A stretch of 64,000 bases of DNA from Nereocystis luetkeana (lineage: Eukaryota > Sar > Phaeophyceae > Laminariales > Laminariaceae), in the NCBI GenBank assembly GCA_031213475.1, contig JARUPZ010000006.1, positions 310,001 to 374,000 on the forward strand, in the 5' to 3' direction. The position numbers and the translations under genes are program-made. This document shows, piece after piece, positions 59,301 through 62,300 of this stretch. The notes beneath the pieces are model-generated. The model was not told the DNA's origin. It made no database searches and worked only from the letters and a program-made list of their open reading frames with translations. Each line of letters starts with the position of its first letter. The first letter of the stretch is position 1.

Positions 59301-62300
59301 AAGACAGGCCGTACACACGTACCTATATACGAAAACAAAACAAATACACAAACAAGATGCTTCCGGCGTGGTTAAGCTACCAGCACATCGACCCTTTTCC
59401 TGTTGCACTTCACGTAAGCATGGGTGTCACTCTATTTCCAAGCACTAAGCCCTCCAAACGGGAGTTCAGTCCTAGAAAGGGTTCATCACTAAAAAAACTA
59501 TTACGGGGGGCCATAGTTGATAGGACAAAATATTGTTATTAATAGTAAAAATGGTTAAATATATACCAGGGGTAGATTATTATATGTATACCATTTTTTT
59601 ATTTATTTATTTTCTCATCCCATTCATTATCTTCGCACATCTTCTTCTCTCTCCTTCCAACTCGTAACTCAGATCCGGGGTCACATAGCAGGCTCTTCTC
59701 CCCCCTTCCCGCTACGGTACGTGCCTTCATTTTTATCACGGGAAGATTTCAGCCTTTTCTTCCCTCGTAGGTCCTATTAACTATGGTCCCCCGTAATATT
59801 ACGGGGGACCATAGTAAATAGGACCAAATAATGTTGGTGAAAATAGCGAATTATATAGTTTTTTGTATGTACCGTAGGTTCTATAAAATACGGTCCCCCG
59901 TAATAGCTTCTCTGCTTCGAACACCCCTGGCCTGAACAAACGACAGCGCGTGCACACACAACACACATTTGGGACCGAGCAGATCTCGAATTGATGATCT
60001 AGATCCATCCGGGCAAACATATTCGTCATTTGTACCATCTGCAAGATATATCTATCTGTACGGTAGATCATGTTTCTCCGGTGGAATCTGCAGTACTGTA
60101 TGGCAAGGGTCTTACACGAACTTATGCCGGGGGTGGTATCTACCTGATCTATCTGATCTATGTGCATGCTACATATGGCTCTTGCAAAGCATCTCACAAC
60201 GCGAAATATACATATACAAACAATTTACACCTGACATTCAACACCCCGGACATATCATACAGATCATCTATTCCCACGGTTCATATCTAGATATTTCAGG
60301 GCAGATAGCTCTATTCCTGATCTGAATGATCTGTACGATCTAGCTCACGTCGCCGGGTGGGAGCCGTAAACTCTGCATATATAGCTCGAAAATAGCAAAA
60401 AAATCATGGGTGAGATCTATACTGCTGTACATAAACAGCTCCTGCACAGCACTTATCGCAACGGCAGGATATAGAGGATACATATATTTTATCTACTACA
60501 GCAGATCACGATCTGTTCCAAGGAGTGCATCATTCCGATCGCGAACTGTCCGATGGGTACACAGTAGCCGAAAGAACACACGGGAGGACAGAAAACACAG
60601 AAACGACCTGGAGACGGCTGGGCATATCCACTGACCTCCTTGATTGTGCGCCAGACGGGGTTGTACCACAAGCTGAACTCTCCCGTCTTGGAAGAATAAG
60701 AGTGCCCAGGGGGGAACGCCTTCAGCGTGCGGCACTCCGACGACAATCCCTGCTCCCACGAACAAAAAAGCAAGATGGGCCCGACGGACGGATTGGTCGA
60801 CCAAACCGACCGCAAGTAACGAGTAAGAAGCATGACCGACGGAATAACCACATCGACCGCAGTAAACAAGCGGGGGCCCCAGACGCAAGAGGCACAACTT
60901 CCAACTCGATTCAGCGTTTACTTCAACTTCGAGTTGAACTTGGACGTGAATCTTCTCACCTCCTGCGACTGAAAAAAATACTTCAGACTTCAACCATTGC
61001 CTTACCTTTTTTTACAGGGAGGGGTACGATATAAGGGACCTCAACGTCAGAGAAAAGTAGAGCGCCGGAATTGATAAAGGCTGGCGCATGCCGGCACTAC
61101 CAGTATACGACAGAGGGACCAAAACTGTAAATACCGGTTTCAGAGACCAATAACCCTTTCAGGACTCCCATTTCGGGGGCAAACTACTTATAATTGGAAT
61201 GCGTTGTCTCCAAACCGGATTCCAGTACCATTACTAACAGTACTAAAAGGGTCAACATGCCCCTCCCCCTGCAACCGCAACCTTACTACCATAGCCTCAA
61301 CCTTACATTGAATTCAACTACAACTCAGCCTTCACCTCTATTGAAGATTAAACCTTGACAACATCAACTTCAACTTCAACTTCAACTTCAACTTGAAGTT
61401 CAACACAGACCTCAACTTTGAAGCATCCTCACCTTCATCTCCGAGGAGATCCACACGCTGCCATCGTCGCCCCAGCCGATGTAGAGCGGGATGATCCCCA
61501 CATGGTCTCGCGCCACGAAGAAAGAGTCGTCGCGCTTGTCGTAGATGAAAAACGCAAACATTCCTCTCAGCTCGTTGAGGCAGTCCTGGCCCTTCTTCAG
61601 GTAGAGCGGGATGATTGCCTCGCAGTCCGACCCAGTCAACGGCTGGACGTATAGCGGGAAGGAGAATGGGGAGTTGCACGAGTATGGTTGGCGGGAGGGC
61701 AAGAGGGCGAGTAGGGGGGGGGTCGTTTAATGCTGAAGTTTTTACGAGTGCGTTTTTTTCCCGTACTAAATTCAAGTACGTGGGCGCGGTTTTACATTAT
61801 TCATAAAAAGGGACCGCAGGATTTCTTGTATAGGGGTGCTTTGGAGAAGGGAGAGGAGAGGCGGAACGTTCAATAATGGGGGTGAAACTTTCACGCTTCG
61901 AACAGATCATACAGATCGTCTACAGATAATCTATCCCCGCAGTTCATGAATTAGATCCTTCAGGGCGGACATATTCCTGATACGTACGTGTGATCTGTGT
62001 GATCTAGCTCATATTGCGGCATGGGACCGCATAGTCTGCATGATTTGGCACATGTTTCCTGGGTTGGACCCGAGCCGTGCAAATCCTCCTGTACAGCATA
62101 TCATAACAGCAGGTTATGAGCTAGATTATCTACAGTAGATCATTGTTTGTCTCAAATGTGCGGAGGCCTTTATAAATTTAATTCATCGTCGTGTTATCGG
62201 AAGAGAGAGAGAGAAGGACAGTTTAGGGGGTTCTTCAAACGCTTAGATACAGACAGCATCAACCGCACGGTAGTCTATGCTTGGCACATACTGGTTAGTA

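Follow-up and report, generated by a model that had tools for sequence, protein, structure and literature searches.

What does the A/T-only palindrome TATTAATA record, recurring as it does through a stretch of brown algal DNA that also holds many copies of a short TA-inserting element? The window analyzed here is a 64,000-nt stretch of the Nereocystis luetkeana genome (contig 6, bases 310,001-374,000; assembly of 465 Mb in 1,987 contigs). A first-pass annotation, made from the letters of this window, proposed that the octamer is the footprint left when a mariner-like MITE excises. From comparisons of sequence within the genome, we consider that TATTAATA is very probably a stereotyped scar, left by the excision of a 105-bp MITE that inserts at TA and has TTACGGGGG ends.

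Results

The MITE and its insertion at TA

A consensus built from 47 copies defined a MITE of 105 bp, arranged as TA-TTACGGGGG...CCCCCGTAA-TA, whose start (TTACGGGGGACCATAG) and end (CTATGGTCCCCCGTAA) are inverted. Fourteen places in the window matched this element (Table 1), and 28 alignments gave about 91% as the median identity between copies and consensus. The end 15-mer TACGGGGGACCATAG was found at 33,293 places in 465 Mb, with at most two per copy; the 100 listed places covered 9.4 Mb of contig 1. Comparison of paralogues with and without the MITE revealed a difference of 105 bp plus a duplicated TA (L044/L030, and within L025 and L055), confirming the mode of insertion given in the first-pass annotation; in three more pairs, the inserts measured 108 bp (L042/L027), 102 bp (L042/L039), and 90 bp (L038/L017).

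Three features of Stowaway-type elements were found. The 2-bp TA target duplication was seen in filled and plain paralogues and in a nested insertion (L079); the element is short, non-coding, bounded by terminal inverted repeats, and present in high copy number; and paralogue comparison revealed terminal bases between two TAs, as in an excision footprint. It is not a plant Stowaway in the strict sense, its terminal inverted repeat being TTACGGGGG and not CTCCCTC, the grass Stowaway consensus (PMC4423477). A Tourist/PIF-Harbinger assignment was rejected, as the 3-bp TTA/TAA duplication is absent: the insert itself supplies TTA and TAA, and TA alone is duplicated. A piggyBac-like assignment was also rejected, the copies flanked by TTAA forming a separate family. 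This second MITE, of about 100 bp and piggyBac-like form, is bounded by TTAA and has CCC...GGG ends.

A DDE_3 search of the genome for the cognate transposase gave 0 matches, and no TA-type transposase turned up when 10 sample ORFs were scanned against Pfam. One ORF (L044:1526-2368) matched DDE_Tnp_4, a domain known from Harbinger-type transposases. Searching a sequence collection with the MITE end returned one viral contig and six genome contigs; the whole MITE was present in L033, L035, and L037, and the remaining four contained only the 16-mer. The three contigs with whole copies, filed as bacterial MAGs (Saprospiraceae, Phycisphaera, and Flavimaricola), are probably stray eukaryotic contigs; in L037, TACCTGGTA lies within a MITE copy.

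Table 1. Positions of MITE copies, octamers, and other repeats in the window.
Feature	Position	Strand	Remarks
MITE copy 13	59501..59796	+	split by ~173 bp of other sequence (~59595-59767)
Insert of ~173 bp in a MITE copy	59595-59767		relatives at L049:1953-2129 and L056:4335-4506
MITE copy	59799..59903	+	105 bp, TTACGGGGG...CCCCCGTAA, TA flanks
MITE copy	58778..58882
MITE copy	53453..53555
MITE copy	41977..42081
MITE copy	39563..39667	+	adjoins TATTAATA at 39668-39675
MITE fragment	30494..30526		adjoins TACCTGGTA
MITE copy	29158..29262
MITE copy	21544..21635		TACCTGGTA close to far end (21642)
MITE copy	18861..18965
MITE copy	15365..15469		adjoins two overlapping octamers (15351, 15357)
MITE copy	9693..9794
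MITE copy	9531..9635
MITE copy	7967..8085		contains two TACCWGG gains
TATTAATA	59537..59544		inside MITE copy 13; TTAATA gain at GTTA^GTAAAAA
TATTAATA, two overlapping	15351..15364		common TA, then MITE
TATTAATA	39668..39675		abuts MITE
TATTAATA	18410..18417		AGC..GCT context
TATTAATA	43781..43788		TAC..GCA context
TATTAATA	26542..26549		TAC..ATA context
TATTAATA	2973..2980
Other TATTAATA starts	4428, 4930, 6211, 9806, 21757, 22490, 25711, 29344, 31894
Other TATTAATA starts	34875, 39697, 40722, 43270, 45562, 49409, 53978, 62564
TACCWGGTA examples	30626-30662, 7703-7718, 33470-33485		often TA-sharing chains
Second MITE, TTAA-bounded	27562-27659, 32291-32398, 63131-63227

Enrichment of the octamer

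The octamer occurred 25 times in the window as compared to 0.93 expected from 100 dinucleotide shuffles (highest shuffle, 5), in line with the earlier estimate of about 20 by eye and about one by chance. The example positions given with that estimate were right to within 3 bases: 4428, 4930, and 39668 were exact, and four starts were corrected (18413 to 18410, 29342 to 29344, 43778 to 43781, and 53977 to 53978). Among the A/T-only 8-mers of the window, TATTAATA was second only to poly-A, and the remaining A/T-only palindromes occurred 0-5 times each, except for TATATATA and ATATATAT with 15 each. A 200-kb sample from elsewhere, taken at fixed positions in the first 0.5-8.5 Mb of contigs 1-5, contained 35 octamers against an order-2 expectation of 1.24. 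The words commoner than TATTAATA in this sample were poly-A, (TAA)n, (TA)n, and several A-rich words, and the only A/T-only palindromes that outnumbered it were ATATATAT and TATATATA. Simple repeats apart, unrelated A/T octamers were thus not equally enriched. The whole 465-Mb genome held 93,112 copies of TATTAATA compared to 10,689 of its reversal, the control palindrome ATAATTAT; the former total is not a count of excisions, because the octamer is also part of a dispersed repeat with 1,260 matches.

Octamers outnumbered places matching the MITE both in the 200-kb sample (35 versus 12) and in the window (25 versus 14). This suggests that more sites have been vacated by MITE copies than are occupied at present, although the ratio is a rough one, affected by unequal decay, by octamers inherited with repeats, by the uneven spread of the MITE, and by the origin of the 200 kb from contig starts.

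The same site in several states

The first-pass annotation had looked to different genomes for a locus with the MITE, the octamer, or a single TA; here, all three states were observed within one genome, at sites that are paralogous. Within a tandem array on contig 4 (L055), the site CAGCTA^GCTG was plain 14 times on the plus strand, contained CAGCTATTAATAGCTG 3 times, and was MITE-filled once (CAGCTA-105-bp MITE-TAGCTG), with 0 other gains of 3-12 nt. Genome-wide, all five gains at sites of this type (GGCAGCTA..TAGCTGCGCAGC) were TTAA; contig 4 held four of them and contig 282 the fifth. The octamers of the array represent one to several events, because array duplication could have copied one scar.

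The MITE itself provided two further sites. Site A, GTTA^GTAAAAA, is the TA at which window copy 13 had been described as bearing a clean TTAATA gain, and positions 59532-59551 indeed read ATTGTTATTAATAGTAAAAA where the MITE consensus reads ATTGTTAGTAAAAA. Across the genome, the plain site-A word was found 10,803 times, TA followed by a MITE end 331 times, and a gain of 3-12 nt 321 times. The 331 fillings were counted by junction pattern, and two were read through: L079 contains a complete 105-bp MITE nested at the site-A TA, and L078 has the same type of junctions around an inner copy of 137 bp with an internal repeat. Among 100 listed of the 321 gains, 49 were exactly TTAA and 51 were not; TTAA stood at the start or end in 65, and the others included TTA or TAA (6), CTG (6, comprising all 3-nt gains of the CWG type), and exactly CCAGG (1). 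On contig 1, the end 15-mers, nested MITE copies, and plain site-A words that were listed were sparse in the first 13-15 Mb and dense beyond.

Site B, ACTA^TGG, also lies inside the MITE and had 47 MITE fillings and 252 gains. Here, exact TTAA accounted for only 6 of the 100 listed gains (94 were something else; shorter anchors gave 22 exact matches), and CCAGG/CCTGG (24) and CAG/CTG (18) predominated. Fillings and octamers were therefore both fewer at site B, whereas exact CCWGG gains showed the reverse (24 at B versus 1 at A among 100 listed per site), which indicates that octamer numbers track MITE fillings and that CCWGG numbers do not, an agreement that covers these two sites.

The filled-site agreement bears on the best of the alternative explanations, in which the octamer is a scar but comes from some other TA-TTA element, perhaps an autonomous one, whose target preference the MITE shares and to which the MITE is only related. 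Any element ending in TTA would leave the same octamer, and neither the transposase nor an element of its own was found with the DDE_3 search. We nevertheless consider this explanation unlikely, since the octamer counts go with the MITE-filled counts at the two sites and the TTACGGGGG MITE was the sole recurrent TA-TTA inverted-repeat element in 354 kb. The reading of TATTAATA as a footprint of this MITE is supported by the paralogous three-state loci and by the enrichment, and neither of the outcomes that the first-pass annotation had held to speak against it was encountered.

Independent events or descent

Gains could also be copies of an older gain, carried by descent within a MITE subfamily and within other repeats and then amplified. 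One repeat does behave in this way: the dispersed repeat GTCTGCTATTAATAGTCTCC (1,260 matches to one stretch) bears TATTAATA in its own sequence, and among 100 listed matches, none was plain and most had TTAA. It was therefore rejected as a three-state locus, its octamer belonging to the repeat. Members were found at L042:9215-9818 and in L017, L039, and L012; in L042, a MITE is inserted within the octamer of the repeat. Some octamers are thus inherited inside other repeats and are not independent scars.

As a general account, descent is very improbable. The first 20 listed site-A copies with exact TTAA lay in 20 different flanks, and in a tree of these 20 and 12 plain MITE copies, the gain appeared on both main branches with 9 changes, compared to a mean of 9.9 for shuffled labels (171 of 500 shuffles at or below the observed value). 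With 26 of 29 inner branches open, this poorly resolved tree shows an absence of clustering and not the number of events. Grouping by flanks placed the 60 octamers from the window and 200-kb sample together in 53 clusters, 49 of them singles. Most of the octamers examined have unrelated flanks, and we read them as probable separate events.

Target context of the octamers

The target profile of the MITE, derived from 34 of 45 full-length MITE places (TA on both sides, unique flanks), reads G, T, A outward from the TA, that is, TAC-TA-GTA. For 73 of 81 octamers (8 with simple, MITE-like, or octamer-bearing flanks were dropped), the mean profile score was 1.52, compared to 3.16 for MITE sites and -2.97 for 18,528 TA sites. 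Lower means were obtained for TAATATTA (-0.40), TACWGTA (-1.44), and TACCWGGTA (-3.90), as well as for other A/T inserts between TAs (-2.35) and TTAA outside TA..TA (-2.90). Octamers scored above all TA sites (p 8e-27) and above TACCWGGTA (p 8e-23); they scored below MITE sites (p 0.004), a poorer fit to the MITE target profile. The result held in a test limited to the 23 window octamers kept, scored against a profile built from 29 MITE sites that lie elsewhere (p 2e-11), and the signal persisted when triplet-repeat flanks were left out (GTA on 14 of 94 octamer sides versus 438 of 22,584).

It is scarcely credible that TATTAATA is instead a regulatory word, a product of A/T microsatellites, or the preferred target of a TTAA-inserting, piggyBac-like family: a TTAA-CCC...GGG-TTAA family does exist, with one copy within TATTAATA at 27560, and 3 of the 60 octamers (all in L040) have low-complexity flanks, but TTAA outside TA..TA and other A/T inserts are without the MITE target context, and the 6-base gain relative to plain paralogues is not what a conserved regulatory word or a preferred target would produce. 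The TTAA family was also rejected as a source of octamers, since most of its copies end in TTAA and not in TA..TA.

A possible route to the scar

Insertion of the MITE duplicates the target TA, and on excision the donor site would retain a few of its end bases. If each 5' end were cut 3 nt inward, in the manner of Sleeping Beauty/mariner elements, each flank would carry a 3' overhang TTA; two such overhangs could pair through their self-complementary TA, and filling in one base on each side would give TA-TTAA-TA. The same octamer could also arise from a cut 2 nt inside, the ISY100 pattern, but would then need a less direct joining of unpaired ends. The rule originally proposed, two bases left from each end, does yield TTAA, but a second cutting pattern does so as well, and the data are compatible with both.

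A scar with two TAs may then serve again as a target, giving MITEs that abut octamers and octamers in chains. Such adjacency, already pointed out in the first-pass annotation, was seen for the MITE at 15365-15469, which is preceded by two octamers, and for the copy ending at 39667; the octamer pair and MITE from 15351 would correspond to three rounds at one site.

Further candidate scars

A second word, TACCWGGTA (W = A or T), occurred 51 times in the window versus 0.40 expected, and 182,395 times genome-wide versus 1,744 for the reversed word, an enrichment far above that of the octamer. It was also found as gains within MITE copies and as chains with itself (14 versus 0.9 expected). TACCWGGTA looks like a second excision scar without a visible donor. 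Recurrent TA-CCW inverted repeats and approximate inverted repeats were sought in 354 kb, in which some loci overlap, and no donor was found; paralogue insertions and shared sequence after TACCWGG in the same 354 kb also gave nothing recurrent. Long inverted repeats starting with TACC, TACTG, or TATTA (L039, L045, and L055) were rejected, the repeats continuing past the TA. The donor of TACCWGGTA, provided that the word is a scar, would be rare or lost.

The word TACWGTA was found 67 times in 200 kb (L038-L057) versus 27 expected. Its gains at site B, CAG and CTG with 9 each among 100 listed, have the form of a Sleeping Beauty footprint and suggest a third scar. A similar overhang rule could turn CAG ends into CWG; it could likewise yield CCWGG, either from CCW ends whose middle base is mismatched or from an overhang of 5 nt, CCWGG. 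At site B, A and T occupied the middle base in 13 and 11 of the listed CCWGG gains and in equal numbers of the CWG gains.

Discussion

The closest counterparts of this MITE are the grass Stowaway MITEs and the Tc1/mariner transposases studied with them (PMC1925063, PMC4561436, PMC4423477). As described there, the elements are likewise short and non-autonomous, duplicate TA, leave footprints of terminal bases between TAs, and may insert next to an older footprint (PMC1925063). Their footprints are varied fragments of 1-4 bp, in contrast to the single palindrome that makes up 49 of 100 listed site-A gains here. For rice, the same sources report that 8 of 94 putative excisions, from several superfamilies, left just the duplicated target.

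Two further reactions frame the proposed route. Sleeping Beauty and mariner elements are described as being cut 3 nt inside the 5' end, with 3-nt 3' overhangs and end-joining footprints (PMC7827188). The MITE would differ in its overhang, TTA, whose TA can pair with itself. For ISY100 of the IS630 family, the cut is placed 2 nt inside, and ligase closed the backbone to a TATATA junction (PMC2170065). That ligation is a precedent for self-pairing ends; the system is bacterial and was studied in vitro, and its 2-nt rule applied here would leave non-complementary TT overhangs. Scars of the kind proposed here were not found described in a search of titles and the starts of abstracts of open-licence papers, and they may be reported elsewhere. 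Papers listed for the letters themselves appeared, from their titles, to concern primers and barcodes.

More broadly, the intergenic DNA of this alga may be densely marked by scars of at least two, perhaps three, TA families, each fixed by the pairing of its overhangs, and the TACCWGGTA element may be extinct, very rare, or missing from the sequenced nuclei, leaving a record of its departures alone. This wider picture is possible, although we lean slightly against it. As a rule, a cut-and-paste element is counted at the sites where it is present; a fixed scar would make its past departures visible as well. A single genome would then suffice for the study of departures, with no need of a sister species, and the copies of the element would themselves provide thousands of replicate sites, at some of which the repair outcome is unusually uniform. 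Such scars would open a way to estimate excision against insertion, and they offer a means of detecting transposon families that have vanished.
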